Assembly (NCBI RefSeq): GCF_003003355.1
Contig: NZ_PVTQ01000002.1
Span: 248,001-312,000 of the forward strand
Source: Donghicola tyrosinivorans
Lineage (GTDB): Bacteria > Pseudomonadota > Alphaproteobacteria > Rhodobacterales > Rhodobacteraceae
DNA length: 64,000 nucleotides
Direction of reading: 5' to 3'
The position numbers and the translations under genes were made by a program. The notes beneath the pieces are model-generated. The model worked only from the letters and a program-made list of their open reading frames with translations, was not told the DNA's origin and did no database searches. This document shows positions 35,134-44,815 of the stretch, piece after piece. Numbering within the stretch: position 1 is the stretch's first letter; each line of letters opens with the position of its first letter.

Positions 35134-36009
35134 TTACTCGGCGGCCATTTTGGATGCGGCAGCGGCATTTTTCAGAACGAAGTCGAATTCAATGTGCAGC
35201 TTGGTGCCCAGTTCGGGCGCGGCGGGTTTGAACTTGCCGATCAGGCTTTCCTTCACCGCGAACACGCTGTCATCTTCCAGCCAATCGCTGTCGGCGTCAT
35301 AGATCTGGCTGATCAGCTGCTGATAGCCGTCCTTCGAGATGATGAAGTGCATATGTGCAGGGCGGTTCGGGTGGTGGCCCATATAGCGCAGCAACTCGCC
35401 CGCGGTTTCATCATCGGGGATCGGGTAGGGGACAGGACGGACGGCGACAAAGGCGTAATGGCCGTTCTCATCGGTCTCGAACCGACCACGCAGGTTGTAT
35501 TCGGGCTGATCGGGGTCAAGGTTCTCATAGACGCCGTTGGGGGCATCTTCCCAGATGTCCATGGTGACGCCGGCAATGCCGTTGCCCGCCTCATCGCGGA
35601 TGTAGCCTTCGTAGTAGACGGTTTCTTCATCATCGTAGTGCTTCAGAATGACCGAGCCGCCTTTGGGCAGAACCGGCGGGTTCTCACGATAGAATGGCCC
35701 CAGAACGGTGGATTCACTTTCAGAGCCTTCAATTGGGTTGGTCATCATATCGACCAAAACTTCGACCCCTAGAATATCCCCCAGCAGGATGAATTCCTGA
35801 CGGTTCTCGTTGCAGAGCTTACCGGCGCGGGCCAGATAATCGCAGACGGCCAGAAACTCCGAATGCTGAAGCTTCACGTCCTTGATGAAGCCATGCATGT
35901 GCTTGAGCATCGAGACCATAATCTCGCGCTGGCGATCATCGATGTCGCCGTGCTTGCCCAGACTGTTGATGACGACATCGGTAATGTTGTCGATATTCAC
36001 GATACCCAT
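35134..36009 (-). CDS. catA: Intradiol ring-cleavage dioxygenase (catechol or hydroxyquinol 1,2-dioxygenase)
   Basis: 291 residues, with an N-terminal helical dimer-linker domain (1-100) and a catalytic beta-sandwich. The non-heme Fe(III) ligands are Y161 (GVYENLD), Y195 (PVPYPIP), H219 and H221 (RPAHMHF). The neighbouring muconate cycloisomerase argues for catechol as substrate. However, DIWEDAPNGVYENLDPDQPEY and VRPVPYPIP look closer to hydroxyquinol/chlorocatechol-type members than to Acinetobacter CatA, so substrate range is open. It is divergent from the SCP2-like gene across two copies of the cluster's palindrome. Confidence 0.88.
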   Translation of the reverse strand: MGIVNIDNITDVVINSLGKHGDIDDRQREIMVSMLKHMHGFIKDVKLQHSEFLAVCDYLARAGKLCNENRQEFILLGDILGVEVLVDMMTNPIEGSESESTVLGPFYRENPPVLPKGGSVILKHYDDEETVYYEGYIRDEAGNGIAGVTMDIWEDAPNGVYENLDPDQPEYNLRGRFETDENGHYAFVAVRPVPYPIPDDETAGELLRYMGHHPNRPAHMHFIISKDGYQQLISQIYDADSDWLEDDSVFAVKESLIGKFKPAAPELGTKLHIEFDFVLKNAAAASKMAAE

Positions 36010-36257: not shown

Positions 36258-36638
36258 GTGCTGGAGAAATTTACCTTCATGCAGGCGGAAATCGCGCGCA
36301 GACCGTATCTGCAGCGCCTCGGGGCACTGTTTTCGGAAACCGTGTTGGTGCAGATCGACGATCAGGAATTCTATCTGACCTTTGACAAGGGCCAGCTGGT
36401 GGATCTGGCGCAAGGGATCAGCCGCAAGACGCCTTGGACCTTTGCGATCCGCACCGACGCAGAGGCACTGTCCGAGTTCTGGACCGCACGCCCCAAACCC
36501 GGATTTCACGACATTTTCGGCCTTGTGAAACTGGGCCGTGGCCGGATCGACGGCAACATTCTGACGCTGGTCAAGAACCTGCGTTTCTTCAAAGACGTGA
36601 TGGCCCTGCCGCGCGAAATGCAGGAGGCTGCTCAATGA
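36258..36638 (+). CDS. SCP2-like (sterol-carrier-type) small protein
   Basis: 126 residues with no signal peptide or membrane segment. The pattern LVQIDDQEFYLTFDKGQLVDLAQ and FAIRTDAEALSEFW resembles SCP2-type lipid- or ligand-binding folds. The match is weak. It starts with GTG behind CGGGAGGG and its stop overlaps the ATG of the hydrolase gene (ATGA), so the two are translated together. A ligand-carrier or hydrolase-partner role in aromatic degradation is only a guess. Confidence 0.6.
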   Translation: MLEKFTFMQAEIARRPYLQRLGALFSETVLVQIDDQEFYLTFDKGQLVDLAQGISRKTPWTFAIRTDAEALSEFWTARPKPGFHDIFGLVKLGRGRIDGNILTLVKNLRFFKDVMALPREMQEAAQ

Positions 36639-37468
36639 CCATCGAACCTATTTGCGGCCGCTACCTGACTGTGCAAATCGACGGGACACCCCAGCGCATC
36701 TATTTCGAAGAGGCCGGACAGGGGCGTCCTGTGATCTGCCTGCATACGGCGGGGGCCGACACCCGTCAGTGGCGGCATCTGATGAACACGCCAGAGGTCA
36801 CAGGACGCCATCGCCTGATCGCCTTTGACATGCCGTGGCACGGGAAATCCCTGCCGCCAGAAGGGTTCCAGACGCAAGAATATCTCCTGCAAACGGATGC
36901 TTACATCAAAACCGTGCTGGCTGTGATTGACGGTTTGGGTCTGGAAAATCCGATCCTTGCGGGCTGCTCGATGGGGGGGCGTATCGCGCTGCAACTGGCC
37001 GCGCTGCATCCCGACAAGTTCAGCGGCTTTATCGCGATCGAGGCGTCGGACTTTCAGCCCGCTTGGTATGACATTGACTGGTTCCACCGTCCTGACGCGC
37101 ATGGTGGCGAGATGGGCGCGGCTTTGGTCAGCGCCAATATCTCGCCCTACGCGCCCGAGGCCGAGCGTTGGAATACCCTGTGGATGTTCATGCAAAGCGG
37201 TCCCGGGGTGTTCCGTGGTGATCTGAATTTCTACACCAAGGACGACAGCTTGATTGCCCGTCTGCCGATGATCGATACGGCAAAGACGCCGGTCCATATT
37301 ATCGTCGGCGCCTACGATCTGACCTGCACGCCCGAAGATGCCAAGCGCACTGCCGACCAGATCCCCGGCGCGACGCTGGCGGTGATGGACGAACTAGGCC
37401 ACTTCCCCATGAGCGAGCATCCAGACGGCTTCCTGCCGTTTTTCCGGCACGGCCTTAGCCTGATGTGA
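36635..37468 (+). CDS. Alpha/beta hydrolase of the aromatic cluster (enol-lactonase-like)
   Basis: 277 residues. The oxyanion loop is LHTAGADTRQW, the nucleophile elbow AGCSMGGRIAL, the acid in GAYDLTCTPED and the His in ELGHFPMSEHPD. This is the layout of 3-oxoadipate enol-lactonase (PcaD/CatD) and of ring-cleavage-product hydrolases. In a catechol ortho pathway the enol-lactonase would be expected here, but the sequence could also serve another hydrolysis. The ATG is behind CAGGAGG and overlaps the SCP2-like stop. Confidence 0.78.
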   Translation: MTIEPICGRYLTVQIDGTPQRIYFEEAGQGRPVICLHTAGADTRQWRHLMNTPEVTGRHRLIAFDMPWHGKSLPPEGFQTQEYLLQTDAYIKTVLAVIDGLGLENPILAGCSMGGRIALQLAALHPDKFSGFIAIEASDFQPAWYDIDWFHRPDAHGGEMGAALVSANISPYAPEAERWNTLWMFMQSGPGVFRGDLNFYTKDDSLIARLPMIDTAKTPVHIIVGAYDLTCTPEDAKRTADQIPGATLAVMDELGHFPMSEHPDGFLPFFRHGLSLM

Positions 37469-37501: not shown

Positions 37502-38428
37502 TTACTGGCGGGTCAGGAACATGGCCTTGATGCCTTTGGCCTTGGCCAGCGTGCGTCCGGCCTCTTCGCCCAAGACAAGAAAAACGGTCGCCCATGCATC
37601 CGCCATCATGCAAGTTTCTGCCAGCACGGTGACAGAGCACAGGGCGCCCGACACAGGCCCCCCGACGCGGGCGCTCATGGTGTGGCTAAAGCGCTGGCCC
37701 TGAATATCGACCCAGTGGCGATAATCGCCCGAGGTGGCAATTGCGCAGTCTTCCAACTCGACCACGGAATGGATGCCGCGGCTGTCGTAATCGGGTACCT
37801 CGATCCCTACGGGCCAAGGCTGGCCATCTGGCCTGGTGCCGACGCAGCGCAGGTCGCCATCAATGCCGCAGGTCAGGGCTTTGACGCCAAAACGGGCGGC
37901 GGTTCGGACCAGTTCATCCGTGCCAAAGCCCTTGGCGATCCCGCCCAGATCAAAGCGGGCAGGGGCAAGCTTGCGGGCAGATCGGGTCTTGGGGTCCAAT
38001 TCCAGAACGGAATGGGCGGGCTTGGGTTTTGACCCGCGAAGTAGCGCTTCAATGCGCGAGGGATTGGAAGGTTCGGGGCCGAACCCCCAAGCGCTGACCA
38101 GATCGCCCACCGCAATATCAAAGGCCCCGCCAGAGGCGCGCCCCACCTGCAAGGCGCTGTCCAGCACGGTGAACATCTGTGGCGGCACCGGCATCCATTC
38201 GCCAACAGGCGCGCTGTTCAGCCGGTTCAGGGCGCTGTCCGGTTTCCACAGAGACATCTGGTCATCCACCGCATCGACCGCCGCTTGCAGCGCTGCCAGT
38301 AGCGGGTCGCTGTCAGCGGGGCCGTCAAAGTAGGTGACATACCAGTGACTGCCCATGGTCGGGCCGTTCAGGCTGATCCGGTTTGTCTCATCCGGCAGTG
38401 TGGCGGCTTCAGAAGACATCAGCAGCAT
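37502..38428 (-). CDS. apbE: FAD:protein FMN transferase (ApbE)
   Basis: 308 residues. GPTMGSHWYVTY, FDIAVGDLVSAWGFGP, FDLGGIAKGFGTDELV and SGDYRHWVDI are conserved ApbE blocks; MMADAWATVFLVLG carries the Mg-binding Asp. It attaches FMN covalently to Ser/Thr in target proteins outside the cytoplasm. There is no clear signal peptide at either candidate start (38428 or 38419). The start overlaps the reductase stop, and GGAAAG precedes 38428. Its genetic partner DUF2271 has a candidate target motif. Confidence 0.9.
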   Translation of the reverse strand: MLLMSSEAATLPDETNRISLNGPTMGSHWYVTYFDGPADSDPLLAALQAAVDAVDDQMSLWKPDSALNRLNSAPVGEWMPVPPQMFTVLDSALQVGRASGGAFDIAVGDLVSAWGFGPEPSNPSRIEALLRGSKPKPAHSVLELDPKTRSARKLAPARFDLGGIAKGFGTDELVRTAARFGVKALTCGIDGDLRCVGTRPDGQPWPVGIEVPDYDSRGIHSVVELEDCAIATSGDYRHWVDIQGQRFSHTMSARVGGPVSGALCSVTVLAETCMMADAWATVFLVLGEEAGRTLAKAKGIKAMFLTRQ

Positions 38429-40601
38429 AGCGGTTTTCTTTCCGAAGGCTGTCAACGGTCAGGCCAAGGGGCGCAAGGATCTGGTTCAGGGCTTCGGCCA
38501 CGCCGGACCCCATGTTTTGACTGCCACATATCATCACCCGTGCCCCGTCAGTTATCAGTTGTTGCAGGCGGGCGGCGTCATCTAGCAAAGCCTGCTGCAC
38601 ATAGCGCGGGCGCATACCGCGCGACCAAGCTAGCGCGACCGAGGCCACTTGCCCGTGATCCGCCCATTGCGTCAGTTCTTCAGCATAAGGCAGGTCGGCG
38701 CCGGTCGAGCGGCTGCCATAGAACAGATGCACCTGTTGCCCGTTTGCGGCGCGGGCGAAACCGGCTAGCGGGCCGATCCCTGCGCCAGCGCCGATCAGGA
38801 TCAGGGGTTTGTCGTCGCGGGGCACGTGGAAGGCTGGGTTGGGCCGGACTGCGGCCTGTATCTGATCGCCCGGCTTCAGGTCAAAAAGCTGCCCGCTGCA
38901 CAGGCCGCCTGCCTTCTTGCGGACGCAGATCTCAATGAACCCGTCGGCGGTGGCAGAGGCCAGCGAATAGCTGCGCGGGCTGTCCGAGGCTTGGGGCAGA
39001 ACATCCAGCAAATCGCCTGCCTCAAACTGCAGTTTGCCACGGCACCAAAGGCGCTGAGGCAGGCTGCGGTGGGGCAGGGCAAAGCGCAGGATGGCGGTCG
39101 GGGCCTGCACATCCTCGCCATAGACGCGGGATGAGGTCAGCGTTAGCGGTTGCACTTGCACAGGGTCCAGCGCCCCCAGGATATCATTCAGTGCGATGCC
39201 TGCGGCCTGTCCCCATGCGTCTGCCCAAGTGGCAAACTCGGATGTGGATTGGCGGTTGATGCACGTCAGCGCCAGCGTTTGGGGCCAGCCTTTGGCGGTG
39301 ATCGCGTCTGAAACCGTATGGGCATAGCCGCAGAAGGCAGGGTAGCCATCGTCGCCAAAGCCAAGGACGGTTATCGCGGCGCTTGGCGCATCCGCTGCCT
39401 CCAGAGCGGTCAGGAAATCGGCCGCTGTTTCGGGGGCATCGCCGTCGCCATAGGTGGCGGCGAACAGCAAGATATTTTCTGCCCTCTTGTAGGTCTGAGG
39501 GGCGAAATCATTCATCTTGGCCAGATGCACGGATTTGCCTGCTGCATGGGCACATGCGGCAAAGGCGCGGGCAAAACGCCATGTGGTTCCCCCTTCGGAC
39601 CCCACAAGGACCACCACATCCGCCGCTTGTGCGCGGGTTTGCGGCACCTCTGCTTTGCGCGAACGGCCCGACAGCCAGACGAGCAGGCCAGTGCCCGACA
39701 GAACCGGAACCGAAAGGCTGATCAGCCCCAACAGCAGCCCCAGAACCGAGGCACCTTGTCCCGTGTGCAGCAAATGCATCAAGTCCATGACTTTCGAGGA
39801 CATCGGGCGATCGGCCCACGTCAGCATCTGGCCCGTGGCGGGATCGATGTAGCCTGCGCCTGCGTCGGTTTCGACCTGCCAGGCCTGACCGGGAATGCCG
39901 GCGCGGGGCAGGGTGATCTGGCGCAGGCTGTCGCCAGAGATGGCCACAAGGGCAGGCAGTTGGCTCGGGGATGCGGCGGTATCTGTGCTGACGGACATGG
40001 GGAAGGCAGGTTGCGGGCTGCCCTCTTCGATTAGCCCAAGGGTCGAGGCCCCCATCCACAGCCCCGACAAAGAGGACACCAGCAGGCCGATGATCGCAAA
40101 TCGCGCCAGGCGTAAGTGCAGGTTGCCCGCACCATCGCCGAGATCGCGGCTGAAAATCTTGCGCCAGCCGCCAAGCCGACGCGCCGCCAACCACAGACCA
40201 CTGAACCCCAGTGCGATCATCGCGCCGGTGGCGATCAGCACGATGATATGGCCAGTGTCGGATAGCAGCAGCGCACGGTGCAGGTTCTCGAACCACAGCT
40301 CGGTTTGGCTCTGGGTCACAGGGCCCAGAACAGCGCCGGTCGCAGGATCAATCACCTGCTGGACAAAACCATCGGGGCCAAAGGCCACGGCGGTCATGAC
40401 GTTGTTGTCGTTGACCAGAATTTGCTCGACCCCCGGCGCCGATTGCATGACTGCCTCGGCCAGAGCGCCCGCGTTCAGGCGGGCGCTGGTCCGGTCGGCG
40501 TCCAACAGCGGAAAGACTGACAGGATCGTACCCGTCAGGGAAACCACAATCAGGATCAGCGCAAAGCCGATGCCCGCATATCGGTGCAAAGAGCGGAACA
40601 T
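38409..40601 (-). CDS. PepSY-TM / flavodoxin / FAD-NAD(P)H reductase fusion protein
   Basis: 730 residues. The N-terminal 320 are a PepSY-associated membrane module with four helices (about 11-33, 117-137, 167-187, 296-315). Next is a flavodoxin-like FMN domain (VGSEGGTT to about 465), then a CysJ-like FAD and NAD(P)H domain with RSYSLAS, GLCSGQL, LIGAGAGIGPLAGF, YGSR and a terminal CGSQNMGSGV. It should carry electrons from cytosolic NAD(P)H through FAD and FMN to the membrane or periplasm. Gene order DUF2271, this gene, apbE suggests that the final acceptor is the flavinylated DUF2271 protein or a metal complex. Confidence 0.88.
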   Translation of the reverse strand: MFRSLHRYAGIGFALILIVVSLTGTILSVFPLLDADRTSARLNAGALAEAVMQSAPGVEQILVNDNNVMTAVAFGPDGFVQQVIDPATGAVLGPVTQSQTELWFENLHRALLLSDTGHIIVLIATGAMIALGFSGLWLAARRLGGWRKIFSRDLGDGAGNLHLRLARFAIIGLLVSSLSGLWMGASTLGLIEEGSPQPAFPMSVSTDTAASPSQLPALVAISGDSLRQITLPRAGIPGQAWQVETDAGAGYIDPATGQMLTWADRPMSSKVMDLMHLLHTGQGASVLGLLLGLISLSVPVLSGTGLLVWLSGRSRKAEVPQTRAQAADVVVLVGSEGGTTWRFARAFAACAHAAGKSVHLAKMNDFAPQTYKRAENILLFAATYGDGDAPETAADFLTALEAADAPSAAITVLGFGDDGYPAFCGYAHTVSDAITAKGWPQTLALTCINRQSTSEFATWADAWGQAAGIALNDILGALDPVQVQPLTLTSSRVYGEDVQAPTAILRFALPHRSLPQRLWCRGKLQFEAGDLLDVLPQASDSPRSYSLASATADGFIEICVRKKAGGLCSGQLFDLKPGDQIQAAVRPNPAFHVPRDDKPLILIGAGAGIGPLAGFARAANGQQVHLFYGSRSTGADLPYAEELTQWADHGQVASVALAWSRGMRPRYVQQALLDDAARLQQLITDGARVMICGSQNMGSGVAEALNQILAPLGLTVDSLRKENRYAADVF

Positions 40602-40610
40602 GGTCAGACC

Positions 40611-41081
40611 TCACATATCAAAGCTGAACGAGGCCACATATCCGCGACCCGCCGTCGTTTGGCCTGCCGTGCTTTGATCAAGGGGCATGATGATCTCGGC
40701 GGGGCTGTTTGGCATGTGTTCAACGGCGGCGTCCATGCGGATCTGGTAGCCTGCGTTGATCAGAGCGTCCTCAACCTCGACCGAGATTTTCAGGGATTGG
40801 CCCGACCCGACCGACGCGCCGCTAAGGCCCGCGATTTCTGACGATGATCCGCCTGTGCCTGCGTACCATGCCGACAGGTGGTCCCACCAACGGGATTTGC
40901 CCGACGCGATCCACACATGGCGCACGAATTTCCCCTGCGCGTCGGTGATGTAATAGGCCAGATAGGCATCTTCGCCGCCGTAGTTGCGCAGGGTCGTGTT
41001 GATTGTCACCTCGGCGGCATTCGCAAGACCGGGGGCTGTCAGGGCAGTGGTCGCTGCAAGCAAAGAGGACAATAGCTTCAT
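40611..41081 (-). CDS. DUF2271 periplasmic protein, candidate flavinylated electron carrier
   Basis: 156 residues with a signal peptide (MKLLSSLLAATTALTAPGLANA). The mature domain (TINTTLRNYGGEDAYLAYYIT, VRHVWIASGKSRWW, GYQIRMDAAVE) matches DUF2271. SGAS at residues 87-90 resembles the S/T-G-A-S/T sequence modified by ApbE, and lies at the place where DUF2271 proteins usually carry a TGAT/SGAS motif. The chosen ATG has CGGAGA upstream. It is the first gene of the minus-strand operon and is divergent from the two-component system. Confidence 0.82.
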   Translation of the reverse strand: MKLLSSLLAATTALTAPGLANAAEVTINTTLRNYGGEDAYLAYYITDAQGKFVRHVWIASGKSRWWDHLSAWYAGTGGSSSEIAGLSGASVGSGQSLKISVEVEDALINAGYQIRMDAAVEHMPNSPAEIIMPLDQSTAGQTTAGRGYVASFSFDM

Positions 41082-41156
41082 TGGAATTCTCCGTGGCTCG
41101 AAAAGGGCGCGCAAATAGACTTTTACGCCGTCTGCGGTCCCTTCTCTTTGATCTGG

Positions 41157-41173
41157 CTGAAGCGAACCTGAAG
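41157..41173 (-). promoter_or_regulatory. Tandem repeat box facing the DUF2271 operon
   Basis: CTGAAG (41157-41162) is repeated after five bases at 41168-41173; on the minus strand this reads CTTCAG-N5-CTTCAG. An 11-base period of direct hexamers is the usual binding pattern of OmpR-family regulators such as PmrA and QseB. It is 76 bases upstream of the DUF2271 start. Confidence 0.7.
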
Positions 41174-41188
41174 CAGATGCCCAAATGC

Positions 41189-41205
41189 CTTCAGCTTGCC
41201 TTCAG
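41189..41205 (+). promoter_or_regulatory. Tandem repeat box facing the response-regulator gene
   Basis: CTTCAG (41189-41194) is repeated after five bases at 41200-41205. It is the same element as at 41157 in the opposite orientation, 44 bases before the response-regulator ATG, as expected for autoregulation. Confidence 0.7.
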
Positions 41206-41249
41206 GTTCACAGAAGAGTGTAAAGGTTGTGCAGACAGCGGGGGTGAAA

Positions 41250-41909
41250 ATGCGTGTTTTGCTGATCGAGGACGACAATGTGCTGGGTGGCGCAGTGGCG
41301 GACCAGATTCGCGCAGACGGTCACGGCGTGGATCGGGCGGCTCGGCTGGTGGAGGCGCAGGAGGCGCTGGATGCGCAGCCCTTCGATCTGATCTTGCTGG
41401 ATCTGATGCTGCCGGACGGGCGCGGCATTCCGTTTCTGAAAGCCTTGCGGGCGCGGGGCGATGTGACGCCGGTCATCATCCTGACTGCGCTGGATCAAGT
41501 CAGTGACCGGATCGCAGGGCTACAGGCAGGGGCCGATGATTATCTGGTGAAACCTTTTGATCTGGCTGAACTGTCCGCGCGGATCGGCGCGGTCTCGCGC
41601 CGTTATGCGGGCAACCCCAATCCGCTGGTTGAACTCGGGGATATCCAGATTGATCTTGGCGGGCGTGTTGTGACGCAAGCCGGACGGCTGGTTGCCTTGA
41701 CCGCCCGCGAATGGGCGCTGCTTGAGGCATTTGCCAGCCGCCCCACCCAGCTTTTCACCAAAGCGCAGCTGGAAGAGCTGCTGTACAGCTTTGACGACAG
41801 TGTCGGCTCAAACACGATTGAGGTGCACGTCAGCCATTTGCGCAAGAAACTGGGCAAGGGGCTGATCGTGACAGAACGGGGCATGGGTTATCGGTTGGGT
41901 CAGCCATGA
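41250..41909 (+). CDS. OmpR-family response regulator
   Basis: 219 residues. The receiver domain has E7 D8 D9, phospho-acceptor D51 (LLDLMLPDG) and the conserved Lys in DDYLVKPFDL. The C-terminal winged helix includes LTAREWALLEAF and SNTIEVHVSHLRKKL. It resembles the QseB/PmrA/TctD group. A longer frame adds 18 doubtful residues; the ATG at 41250 starts directly at MRVLLIEDD. Its stop overlaps the kinase start by four bases. It probably controls both its own operon and the divergent DUF2271 operon. Confidence 0.93.
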   Translation: MRVLLIEDDNVLGGAVADQIRADGHGVDRAARLVEAQEALDAQPFDLILLDLMLPDGRGIPFLKALRARGDVTPVIILTALDQVSDRIAGLQAGADDYLVKPFDLAELSARIGAVSRRYAGNPNPLVELGDIQIDLGGRVVTQAGRLVALTAREWALLEAFASRPTQLFTKAQLEELLYSFDDSVGSNTIEVHVSHLRKKLGKGLIVTERGMGYRLGQP

Positions 41910-43225
41910 GGCGAACCTTGTCCCTGACCGCCCGCATCGGGATTTTTACCGGCGCACTGGTGACAGTGCTGTGGCTGGTTGCGTCCATCATCACGGTCGG
42001 CAAGCTGTTCCATGAAGTGGATGAGGTTTTTGACCGCGATCTGAAGGCCACTGCCGAGCGTTTGCTGCCGATCATCATTCACAGCCGCGAAGACAAAGAG
42101 GACGACGACGATTATGAGGGCAAAGACCTGCGGCGGATGCAGGCCGAGGCTGATGATACGGTCTTTGTCGCGACCTCTGACCGGCACGGGCTTTTGTTGC
42201 GCTCGGGCGAGGCGGCGGATGTGGATTTCCCGACGGCTGAGGGGTTTTCCCGCGATGACACTTGGCGGTTCTACGTGGATCGTGCGCGACGCGGGGATGT
42301 GACGATAGCGGTGGCGCGGCCTTTGGATGCACGGCGGGCGCTGTATCGGCGGGCCTTGATGGCCTCGCTCTTGCCTTTGCTTGCGGTGGTGCCGCTGGTG
42401 ATCTTTGGCATCTGGTTTGCCGTGCGTCGGGGGCTGCGCCCGCTGGACGGGGTGCGGGATGAATTGGCAAAGCGCGGGCCGATGAATCTGTCGCCTCTGC
42501 CCATGTCCGGTCTGCCGTCCGAATTGGCGCCAGTGGTGGCCTCGGCCAATACACTGATGCAGCGGATTGAGGCAGGCTTTGAAGCCGAACGCAACTTTGC
42601 CGCCAATGCTGCCCATGAGATGCGCACGCCTGTGGCGGGGGCCATCGCTCAGGCGCAGCGGTTACAGGTCGAAAGCCGCGATCCCTCGGTCCGCACCCGC
42701 GCTGCTGAAATTGAGGAAACCCTCAAGCGTCTGAACCGCTATACCAACAAACTGATGCAGATGGCTCGCGCCGAAGGGGCGCGACTGCGGCTGTCAGAGC
42801 AGATGGATTTGCGCCCCGTCGCGCAGATGATTGCCGAGGATTTCACCCGTTCCGAAAAAGCAGGGGACAGGATTGTTCTGGACCTGCCCCATGGGCCGGT
42901 GAACAGCGATCTGGACCCTGATGCCTTCGGGATCGTGTTGCGCAACCTGCTGGAAAACGCCTTGCGTCACGGGGGCGGGGACAAGGTGCATGTGCGCTTG
43001 TCTGATTGTAAAGAATTGTGTGTGTCGAACGCGGGCGCAAACTTGCCCCCCGAACAGATCACCCGCCTGACCCAGCGCTTTTCCCGTGGCGACGGGGCTG
43101 GGGATGGCACGGGGCTGGGGCTGTCGATCGTCAGCATTATTGCCGAGCGTAGCGGGGCGCAGTTCCAGATCACCTCGCCCTTGCCCGATGATACTGACGG
43201 GGTGATGGTGACGTTCCGCTTTTGA
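41906..43225 (+). CDS. Sensor histidine kinase
   Basis: 439 residues. Membrane helices at about 12-33 and 150-173 enclose a periplasmic sensor of about 115 residues. The H-box is FAANAAHEMRTP with H237, the N-box LRNLLENALRHGG and the G-box GDGTGLGLSIV. The sensor contains an acidic run, residues 62-74 (E62, D63, E65, D66-D69, E71, D74), which could bind cations such as iron, as the ExxE motifs of PmrB do. It is translated with the response regulator. Confidence 0.93.
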   Translation: MRRTLSLTARIGIFTGALVTVLWLVASIITVGKLFHEVDEVFDRDLKATAERLLPIIIHSREDKEDDDDYEGKDLRRMQAEADDTVFVATSDRHGLLLRSGEAADVDFPTAEGFSRDDTWRFYVDRARRGDVTIAVARPLDARRALYRRALMASLLPLLAVVPLVIFGIWFAVRRGLRPLDGVRDELAKRGPMNLSPLPMSGLPSELAPVVASANTLMQRIEAGFEAERNFAANAAHEMRTPVAGAIAQAQRLQVESRDPSVRTRAAEIEETLKRLNRYTNKLMQMARAEGARLRLSEQMDLRPVAQMIAEDFTRSEKAGDRIVLDLPHGPVNSDLDPDAFGIVLRNLLENALRHGGGDKVHVRLSDCKELCVSNAGANLPPEQITRLTQRFSRGDGAGDGTGLGLSIVSIIAERSGAQFQITSPLPDDTDGVMVTFRF

Positions 43226-43242: not shown

Positions 43243-44124
43243 CTAGGCCAGATATTGCCGCGCTGCCTGTTTGATGGCGTGCGTCAGCGGGGCGATGGCT
43301 TCGGCCATCAGACGGCTGAACTGCCAGTAGAGGGCCGAGTCGTAAGGGTGTGCAGGGGCCAGCGGCACAAGGGTTCCGGCCTTCAGGTAGGGTCGGGCCA
43401 GAATTTCGGGGTGCATCGCCCATCCCATTCCCAAAAGGCACGCATCCAGAAAGCCGTGAGTTGATCCGATCCGGTGCTGGCGCAGCGCCGCCCGATGGCA
43501 GCGGCCTTGGGTGAACTGATGCACCCAGTCCTCTTGCAGCTTGTCCTTGTCGGAAAAAACCAGCGTCGGAGCTTGCATTAACGCTGCATCAGTCGGTCCG
43601 TCCGGCATCCAGCGCTGCATATAGGCGGGGCTGGCCGCAGCCACATAGCGCAGGTTCCCCAAGGAGAGCGTGTCGCAACCCTGCACGGGCCGCGCCTGAG
43701 AGGTCACGGCCCCCGCAACCTCGCCCCGCGAAAGCCAATCGCGCGAGGCGTTCTCATCGTCGATGATGGTGTCAAAGAGGAGCCCGTCGCATTGGGCCAA
43801 AGCGGGCAGGAACCACGTGGCCAGACTGTCCGCGTTCACGGCAATCCGGACCGTGGCGGTATCGGGCGGCGTGCCGGTGATCTCGGACCGGACCTGACGT
43901 TCCAGCAGGGCGATGGTGTCATAGTGCTGGATCAGGCGCAGGCCGGTCTCGGTGGCGCGGCAAGGTTGGCCGCGCTGGATCAGGACGGTGCCGACTTGTT
44001 CCTCAAGCGCCTTGATCCGCTGAGAGATCGCGGACTGGCTGACGTGCAGCTGACTGGCGGCCTGATCAAAGGTGCCGCGCCGATGAACGGCGGCCAAAGC
44101 GGCCAGATGGGCAGGGTCGAGCAT
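43243..44124 (-). CDS. LysR regulator of the ArgP/LysG family
   Basis: 293 residues. The N-terminus LDPAHLAALAAVHRRGTFDQAA and the HTH VSQSAISQRIKALEEQVG, followed by VRIAVNADSLATWFLPAL, are the standard ArgP/IciA pattern. It should activate the divergent amino-acid exporter gene in response to lysine or arginine. The ATG at 44124 is preferred over a TTG two codons earlier. The 88-base divergent spacer holds AAACTTCAC and GATCAGTTT arms, a possible binding site. Confidence 0.9.
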   Translation of the reverse strand: MLDPAHLAALAAVHRRGTFDQAASQLHVSQSAISQRIKALEEQVGTVLIQRGQPCRATETGLRLIQHYDTIALLERQVRSEITGTPPDTATVRIAVNADSLATWFLPALAQCDGLLFDTIIDDENASRDWLSRGEVAGAVTSQARPVQGCDTLSLGNLRYVAAASPAYMQRWMPDGPTDAALMQAPTLVFSDKDKLQEDWVHQFTQGRCHRAALRQHRIGSTHGFLDACLLGMGWAMHPEILARPYLKAGTLVPLAPAHPYDSALYWQFSRLMAEAIAPLTHAIKQAARQYLA

Positions 44125-44212
44125 TAGCAAAACTGATCCAAGTGAAGTTTATCTCATTTTACTAATGTACTTGGCGCCGCTACGTCAAAGGCGGAACGGA
44201 TAGGAGAGCCCG
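44125..44212. promoter_or_regulatory. Divergent argP-argO control region
   Basis: This 88-base spacer separates the regulator from its exporter target. Around 44129-44152 the arms AAACT and AAGTTT lie 12 bases apart and could form a LysR-type dyad. The region is AT-richer than its surroundings. Confidence 0.45.
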
Positions 44213-44815
44213 ATGATCGCAACGTTTTTCCAAGGACTTCTGGTGTCGCTGGGGCTGATTGCGGCGATCGGATCGCAAAACGCCTTTGTCTTGCGGCAAG
44301 GGTTGCGGCGCGAACATGTGGGGTGGGTCGTGCTGGCCTGCGCCTTGTCGGATGCCATCCTGATCAGCGCAGGGGTTGCGGGGATGGGGGCGCTGGTTGC
44401 CTCTATGCCGATGTTAGAGCTGGTGATGCGCTGGATCGGCGCGGCTTTCCTCTTCACCTACGGCGCTTTGCGGTTCAAAGCGGCCCTCAAAGGGGGAGAG
44501 GCGCTGGTGCCCGCCGAAGGGCAGGTCACAAGTCTGGCCAAGGTGCTAGCGATCTGCCTGACCCTGACGTGGGCGAACCCCCATGTTTATCTGGATACAG
44601 TCCTGCTGCTTGGAACGATTTCCGCGCAATATGCCCCGCTGCATTGGGTCTTTGGCGCGGGCGCAATGATGGGATCACTGCTGTTCTTCACCGCGCTTGG
44701 GTTTGGTGCGCGTTTGCTGGCGCCGGTGTTCCGTCAGCCGCGTGCATGGGTTGTTCTGGAGATTATCATCGGTTGCACCATGTGGGCCATCGCCTTGGGG
44801 CTGGTGACATCATAG
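44213..44815 (+). CDS. LysE/ArgO family amino-acid exporter
   Basis: 200 residues with six hydrophobic helices. FFQGLLVSLGLIAAIGSQNAFVLRQGL is the highly conserved LysE/ArgO N-terminus, and LTWANPHVYLDTVLLLG in the fourth helix carries the conserved NPxxYLD motif. It exports basic amino acids, probably L-arginine or L-lysine. TAGGAGAG is the ribosome-binding site. The divergent ArgP-type gene is the likely activator. Confidence 0.93.
   Translation: MIATFFQGLLVSLGLIAAIGSQNAFVLRQGLRREHVGWVVLACALSDAILISAGVAGMGALVASMPMLELVMRWIGAAFLFTYGALRFKAALKGGEALVPAEGQVTSLAKVLAICLTLTWANPHVYLDTVLLLGTISAQYAPLHWVFGAGAMMGSLLFFTALGFGARLLAPVFRQPRAWVVLEIIIGCTMWAIALGLVTS

Follow-up and report, generated by a model that had tools for sequence, protein, structure and literature searches.

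The closest described relatives of the system analysed here are the PepSY-like flavinylated systems, clusters of which have been reported in about 3000 genomes (Meheust et al., 2021, PMC8238504; this and the other papers are cited here from excerpts of their text). Among the 3220 PepSY-like clusters counted there, 2833 contain DUF2271, and 1077 PepSY-like genes carry an NAD-binding domain (PMC8238504). A DUF2271 protein expressed together with its ApbE is flavinylated, a modification that is lost on mutation of the [S/T]GA[S/T] motif, and clusters of PepSY, DUF2271 and ApbE genes have been tied to iron via Fur, TonB and VIT1 (PMC8238504). Since this biochemical core is published, the enzyme set found in a 64,000-nucleotide stretch of DNA of the marine bacterium Donghicola tyrosinivorans (contig NZ_PVTQ01000002.1, positions 248,001 to 312,000; hereafter the window) is not new in itself. 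The electron machinery is known, and its wiring to a sensor, through an operator conserved in many relatives, is undescribed as far as the literature searched goes: no description of a sensor link to DUF2271 sets was found in it, and the text of PMC8238504 has 'two-component' a single time, in the title of a reference, and 'histidine kinase' nowhere.

In the window, three minus-strand genes form a single operon. They encode a DUF2271 protein (40611-41081 from ATG 41081, within an open reading frame (ORF) starting at TTG 41114; PF10029, E 1.2e-28), a membrane reductase that fuses PepSY_TM, flavodoxin and CysJ-like FAD/NAD(P) (FNR) domains (38409-40601; PepSY_TM 6.6e-33, Flavodoxin_1 1.5e-14, FAD_binding_6, NAD_binding_1) and the FAD:protein FMN transferase ApbE (37502-38428; PF02424, E 6.8e-72). 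The apbE ORF extends to a TTG (37502-38455, TTG 38455), and comparison with the N-termini of relatives makes the ATG at 38428 the probable start. Divergent from this operon, on the plus strand, lie the genes for an OmpR-type, PmrA/QseB-like response regulator (41250-41909 from ATG; Pfam and NCBIfam matches) and for a QseC-like sensor kinase (41906-43225; HisKA, HATPase_c, 2CSK_N). A first-pass annotation had proposed this arrangement, with which the ORF and Pfam scans agree; its reading of the set as a flavinylation and transmembrane electron-transfer operon is likewise supported by domains, motifs and gene order.

The divergent start codons are separated by 168 bp, and this stretch contains CTTCAG-N5-CTTCAG on both strands, the left box (41157-41173, minus strand) pointing towards the DUF2271 operon and the right box (41189-41205, plus strand), 32 bp from the left one, towards the regulator gene. 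With this spacing and at most three mismatches, the double operator occurs once in the 4.68 Mb genome (reversed control, 0). The exact CTTCAG-N5-CTTCAG repeat has three copies genome-wide, the two described here and one inside a sugar-binding-protein-like ORF, and the relaxed form CKTCAG-N5-CKTCAG has five, the three outside the operator all being inside ORFs; single sites with one mismatch to CTTCAG-N5-CTTCAG number 39 (reversed control, 11). A wider regulon in the same genome was considered and is unsupported, because the double operator is unique and the other exact sites are intragenic, the 39 single sites not having been examined individually.

Conservation of this operator was followed in 100 loci, made up of 95 stretches (family matches plus three further genomes), four named loci and the window. 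A DUF2271 tblastn match is present in 96 of them; L170, L093, L172 and L173 have none to the window query and were left out of the 96, and L032 and L035, duplicates of L157 and L156, were dropped for the tree and stay within the counts of 77, 78, 80 and 96 given in this text. A box pair with one box per strand, 32 or 33 bp apart, is found in 73 of the relatives' 78 regulator promoters. After removal of identical promoters the pair is present in 68 of 71, against 0 of 7100 mononucleotide shuffles; near-copies stay in the other counts. Of the 78 promoters, 72 contain a single box with at most two mismatches, as do 121 of 1560 random windows of 400 bp; in the relatives' regulator promoters there are 436 6-mer repeats with a period of 11, versus 9-51 at other periods. 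Since no shuffle yielded the pair and the random windows fall far below the promoters, a chance origin of the boxes was rejected. The loci, 1.21 Mb in all, contain 137 pairs, 76 in regulator promoters, 58 upstream of DUF2271 and three elsewhere, two of the latter at 1.17-1.24 kb upstream of DUF2271. The 58 are spread over 56 loci (for example L086, L083 and L088) and lie within 1.1 kb upstream of DUF2271, outside the regulator promoter; 49 of the 56 carry the regulator-promoter pair as well. In the 14 examples printed, the distance from the end of such a pair to the ATG of a PepSY_2, Asp-rich or DUF2271 gene is mostly about 45-51 bp. Because the inverted pair is also found at such one-way promoters, its boxes probably act together as a unit that takes two regulator dimers, not as one box for each direction, and the position of the right box, ending about 45 bp upstream of the regulator start codon, suggests that the regulator is an activator. 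No terminator was found between the divergent genes of the window, and an Rfam search of the DNA returned zero matches.

The strongest evidence that the sensor may control the operon comes from DUF2271 loci that lack an adjoining sensor pair in genomes where the kinase occurs elsewhere. There are seven such genomes, and the box pair is present at six of the seven operons (L080, L110, L112, L094, L088 and L151), L095 being the negative; in L088, L151 and L095, the last with 426 bp of upstream sequence available, the separation may be due to a contig break. All four clearly unlinked cases keep the pair, with the kinase 27 kb away in L080 and on another contig in L110, L094 and L112, where 1.3-6.5 kb upstream of the operon is available. 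The regulator promoters read in genomes with unlinked operons (L225-L228, L237) have the pair in five of five cases. Of the loci with neither a sensor pair nor such a kinase in the genome, L142, L160, L161, L165 and L168 show no box at one mismatch, and L146, which holds DUF2271, shows one weak single box. Control by the sensor, as the first-pass annotation had supposed, thus gains the backing of a conserved operator, a feature absent from that annotation.

The genes themselves travel together, as had been anticipated, all five being present in 77 of the 96 DUF2271-positive loci, with some of the other 19 cut by contig ends. DUF2271, PepSY and ApbE genes have the same order on one strand in 92 of the 92 loci that hold all three (contiguity was not part of the test), and the regulator is divergent in all 80 loci with DUF2271, regulator and kinase matches. 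Within the same family DUF2271 is matched in 86/394 genomes and kinase orthologues (E <= 1e-80) in 77/388; DUF2271 is found in 70 of the 77 kinase-positive genomes versus 16 of 311 others (Fisher p 9e-53, uncorrected for kinship and with the samples of 394 and 388 genomes treated as one), and in eight of these 16 the locus does include a regulator-kinase pair, a more divergent one. Outside the family, 14 further genomes of the same class have DUF2271 matches above the cut-off; L206 and L207 among them hold this sensor pair, and two others show only weak hits (27-32% identity). DUF2271 is also found on 97 plasmid records, of which 71 are typed conjugative and 38 come from Pseudosulfitobacter alone. 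The 12 records read all have regulator and kinase matches, one of them having been chosen through the regulator and two being without an annotation table. In Xanthobacter, the sensor genes are co-directional rather than divergent.

Flavinylation in D. tyrosinivorans is inferred from motifs and the gene set. The DUF2271 protein has a signal peptide (Sec-type, by eye) and SGAS at residues 87-90, as had been noted from the DNA; on checking, [S/T]GAS proves to be kept in 95/96 DUF2271 sequences (exception, L125), and an alignment of 37 shows no variation at G88, A89 and S90, making Ser90 the expected FMN site. The predicted domain (mean pLDDT 87.6) is beta-rich, and a short helical insertion precedes its SGAS loop; the model has no match in the PDB at E <= 0.001, and phmmer with the DUF2271 protein found no relative of solved structure. 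The reductase was considered as a flavinylation target in its place and rejected, as no [S/T]GA[S/T] alignment column is present in at least 10 of 88 rows. Its C-terminal half resembles the sulfite reductase flavoprotein CysJ and P450 reductases, which suggests NADPH as the donor, and histidines 6, 108, 162 and 279 are invariant in 88/88 aligned rows (window counted), which fits a two-heme core such as that described for FoxB (PMC11334425).

The location of ApbE is less easily accommodated. In the window ApbE and the printed relatives, no Sec, Tat or lipoprotein signal is visible, the proteins starting some 10-30 residues before the conserved core (with N-termini of the type MSKMST...), and no ApbE signal peptide was seen by hydropathy and inspection in the 76 loci with the sensor (window counted). 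The assessment of signal peptides used only hydropathy and visual inspection, and hydropathy values overlap between ApbE (up to 1.32) and the DUF2271 control (from 0.98, median 1.85). Most ApbE proteins seem to be secreted; cytosolic ones exist, for example for Klebsiella fumarate reductase (PMC12052999). DUF2271 would be flavinylated either before export, or outside by another ApbE. Three further ApbE genes of the same genome (C11, C32 and C33; L178, L177 and L179) have twin-arginine-like starts by eye; one of them adjoins a NosR-like membrane protein and one a multicopper/nitrite-reductase-like gene (also by eye). Neither the tables nor tblastn show an apbE on the three plasmid stretches read from gamma-proteobacteria, so an adjacent apbE is dispensable there. 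These stretches (L214, L215 and L219, on Klebsiella, Salmonella and Marinobacter plasmids) have the set with VIT1/CCC1 and a ferric-reductase-like gene. The missing signal peptide poses the question of the compartment in which the flavin is attached.

The regulator and kinase score best against the PmrA/QseB and QseC models, below the equivalog cut-offs (regulator, 201.8 bits against 330 for PmrA in NCBIfam and 178.3 against 345 for QseB; kinase, 183.9 against 475 for QseC). The periplasmic loop of the window kinase is acidic at about residues 60-74 (SREDKEDDDDYEGKD). In 66 of 80 loci a PepSY_2 match lies between regulator and DUF2271 genes, and four examples were confirmed as PF13670; there is none at the window locus, and one PF13670 copy is found elsewhere in the genome. 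Kinase loops hold 7-23 Asp and Glu residues in the 11 loci without PepSY_2, window included, versus 4-9 in the 65 loci with it, L145 and L147 being the extremes, a pattern suggestive of a link between the acidic loop and PepSY_2 absence, which we treat as a lead only. By name, PepSY_2 is akin to the PepSY domain of DbfQ, a small protein that modulates the kinase DbfS from the periplasm (PMC12714742). The motif ExxE, looked for as a sign of Fe(II)/Fe(III)-sensing kinases and present in the window loop as REDKE, was rejected as a diagnostic, since it occurs in 40/76 loops (window counted), is weakly conserved and is expected in acidic loops.

The regulator-DUF2271 gaps of relatives hold further genes, with cytochrome b561-like matches in 33/80, ferric-reductase-like matches in 14/80 and a match to the tail of an Asp-rich protein in 56/80. 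Small secreted Asp/His-rich proteins are encoded at L111 6982-7362, L083 7018-7395, L129 6028-6381 and L145 6968-7333; those of L111, L083 and L129 share the C-terminal tail ..GTVAPPxNGLF...VN, which is also seen behind PepSY_2 in L086 (6989-7369). The four Asp-rich proteins scanned have no Pfam match. The Asp/His-rich protein is possibly a periplasmic metal buffer adjoining DUF2271.

The following mechanism can be proposed. The regulator, most likely as dimers, would bind two inverted direct-repeat boxes and directly control, probably by activation, both the DUF2271-reductase-apbE operon and the operon that encodes it. Electrons would pass from NADPH to the FAD and FMN of the reductase, on to two b hemes and to the FMN covalently held by DUF2271 Ser90; their final acceptor would be an oxidised metal in the periplasm, Fe(III) being the likeliest. 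The acidic loop of the kinase would sense a periplasmic cation, in place of the PepSY_2 protein of most relatives. To the reading as a whole, a chromosomal, sensor-controlled PepSY-type flavinylated electron-transfer system with the regulator at two boxes and serving periplasmic metal reduction, we assign a probability of roughly two in three, and we are inclined towards a periplasmic reductase that responds to a metal, iron being the likeliest. A link to metals is seen in relatives, where stretches with complete sets have a VIT match in 30/77 cases and a P-type ATPase match in 34/77, and where VIT lies close to the set on named plasmids.

Several observations weigh against this reading. Second DUF2271 copies (L154 and L158), in genomes where the kinase is found elsewhere, have no box pair, L158 showing one weak single box, and the intergenic stretch of the window yielded no sigma-70-like promoter. 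Seven of the 77 kinase-positive genomes are without DUF2271, so the sensor also serves other genes; the first-pass annotation's sensor dedicated to the set accordingly needs loosening for these seven, in five of which (L229, L230, L231, L233 and L234) PepSY_2 lies beside the regulator, the other two stretches being incomplete. The oldest partner of the sensor may thus be PepSY_2. The relation between loop acidity and PepSY_2 rests on three changes in a tree of 71 (sign test, p 0.25), and L156, with seven acidic residues, is an exception. The electron-transfer scheme proposed earlier fits the type of operon, but it had not included the topological problem of an operon ApbE without a recognisable export signal although its presumed substrate is exported, which leaves the usual periplasmic flavinylation unexplained. 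As for the ferric-iron reduction and iron sensing proposed at first, these stay unproven: a scan of eight window proteins around the set showed no iron or metal gene and the genome has its two VIT-like genes on other contigs, while in relatives a VIT-family match is present in 30/77 stretches with complete sets. Finally, Fur represses the comparable set of Caulobacter, which resembles an uptake system (PMC3751524), so the function may not be the same in all lineages.

Among the alternatives, the one that survives best, at a little under an even chance, is a metal-stress module in which excess periplasmic iron or another metal is sensed and answered by reduction, sequestration by the Asp/His-rich protein and efflux through a P-type ATPase and VIT, the window holding a reduced version. 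The PmrA-type operator speaks for it, PmrB being a sensor of excess Fe3+, Al3+ and mild acid (PMC3973317), as do the Asp/His-rich secreted proteins of relatives and the plasmid spread, 71 of the 97 records being conjugative and 38 of the 97 from Pseudosulfitobacter. A further point in its favour is the P-type ATPase in the set of the Thioclava plasmid pLX01, which scores above the TIGR01525 and TIGR01512 cut-offs. Against it, there is no known metal-resistance phenotype, and the extra genes are absent beside the window set.

Somewhat unlikely, in our view, is an assimilatory ferric reductase as in Caulobacter, serving iron uptake under starvation with the sensor merely as a second input. Caulobacter DUF2271/PepSY/ApbE sets are iron-responsive as well as Fur-repressed (PMC3751524, PMC12004947), and VIT linkage has been taken as a sign of assimilation (PMC8238504). 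Control here nevertheless runs via a two-component system, the relatives add P-type ATPases as well as VIT, and no DUF4198 or TonB receptor gene is found among the eight window proteins or in the plasmid gene tables read, which are incomplete. A third alternative, that the kinase answers outer-membrane damage like DbfS and not metals, draws on the response of DbfQRS to outer-membrane perturbation, Fe(II) and Fe(III) having no effect on its reporter (PMC12714742), and on the prevalence of PepSY_2 genes between regulator and DUF2271; with redox and metal genes as outputs and strongly acidic kinase loops where PepSY_2 is absent, we regard it as improbable. Periplasmic copper reduction for heme-copper oxidases, as proposed for the PepSY_TM protein CrpH of Bordetella, is very improbable, CrpH belonging to a PepSY_TM cluster of its own with DUF2271 and ApbE absent from the main text of that report (PMC13038864) and the plasmid tables read naming VIT, not copper genes, beside the set.

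The metal-responsive reductase may be combined with the topology of its ApbE into a joint reading, one that we consider unlikely, in which ApbE resides in the cytosol, is co-expressed under the control of a metal-sensing two-component system and attaches flavin to DUF2271 ahead of export, the acidic loop of the kinase replacing the DbfQ-like job of PepSY_2 in sister lineages. If true, this would be, as far as the literature examined shows, the first flavinylated export system to have its flavin attached in the cytosol and a metal-sensor module that can be swapped.

Other genes surround the system in the window. On one side, at 43243-44130 and 44213-44815, an ArgP/LysG-type LysR regulator is divergent from a small membrane protein resembling LysE-type amino-acid exporters (by eye). 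On the other, an ORF that by eye is intradiol-dioxygenase-like (35134-36009) and an alpha/beta hydrolase (36632-37468) close to 3-oxoadipate enol-lactonase models are perhaps an aromatic-degradation neighbourhood adjoining the operon.

Compared with described regulatory systems, the regulator and kinase resemble PmrAB and QseBC, where they score best; the scores are sub-cut-off and the target genes here are others. The PmrA box has the same geometry, two 6-bp half-sites head to tail and 5 bp apart (PMC3973317), but its half-site is CTTAAG/XTTAAT against CKTCAG here, and the boxes here form inverted pairs 32 bp apart. DbfQRS of Vibrio cholerae and BqsRS/CarRS of Pseudomonas aeruginosa have a small secreted PepSY-type protein beside the sensor, as in most relatives here, the likeness being one of name, as DbfQ is reported with Pfam PepSY and the relatives' proteins are PepSY_2. 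ExxE acidic sites have been discussed for BqsS (PMC12666569), and ExxE-like sites are found in many of the sensor loops here. The window, unlike DbfQRS and BqsRS, has no PepSY_2 protein beside the sensor, and the targets form a flavinylated electron-transfer operon.

Among enzyme sets, Caulobacter CCNA_03155-03159 also comprises DUF2271, ApbE, an NADPH sulfite reductase-like flavoprotein and a membrane protein and is iron-linked; it is Fur-controlled and includes DUF4198, and no divergent sensor is mentioned in the excerpts. The closest likeness is to the PepSY-like flavinylated systems of PMC8238504, with which the locus shares a PepSY_TM reductase with an NAD-binding domain, DUF2271 with [S/T]GA[S/T] and a clustered ApbE. 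It belongs to that class by its PF03929 protein within a flavinylation-associated cluster and by its motif-bearing DUF2271; an exported ApbE, the usual case (PMC12052999), lies outside the class definition and is not what is seen here. Compared with those systems, the locus has an ApbE without a recognisable signal and no DUF4198 among the window proteins scanned, and it adds a divergent two-component system with a double operator; this conserved operator and its sensor offer a handle on the inducing signal, which should in turn indicate the electron acceptor.

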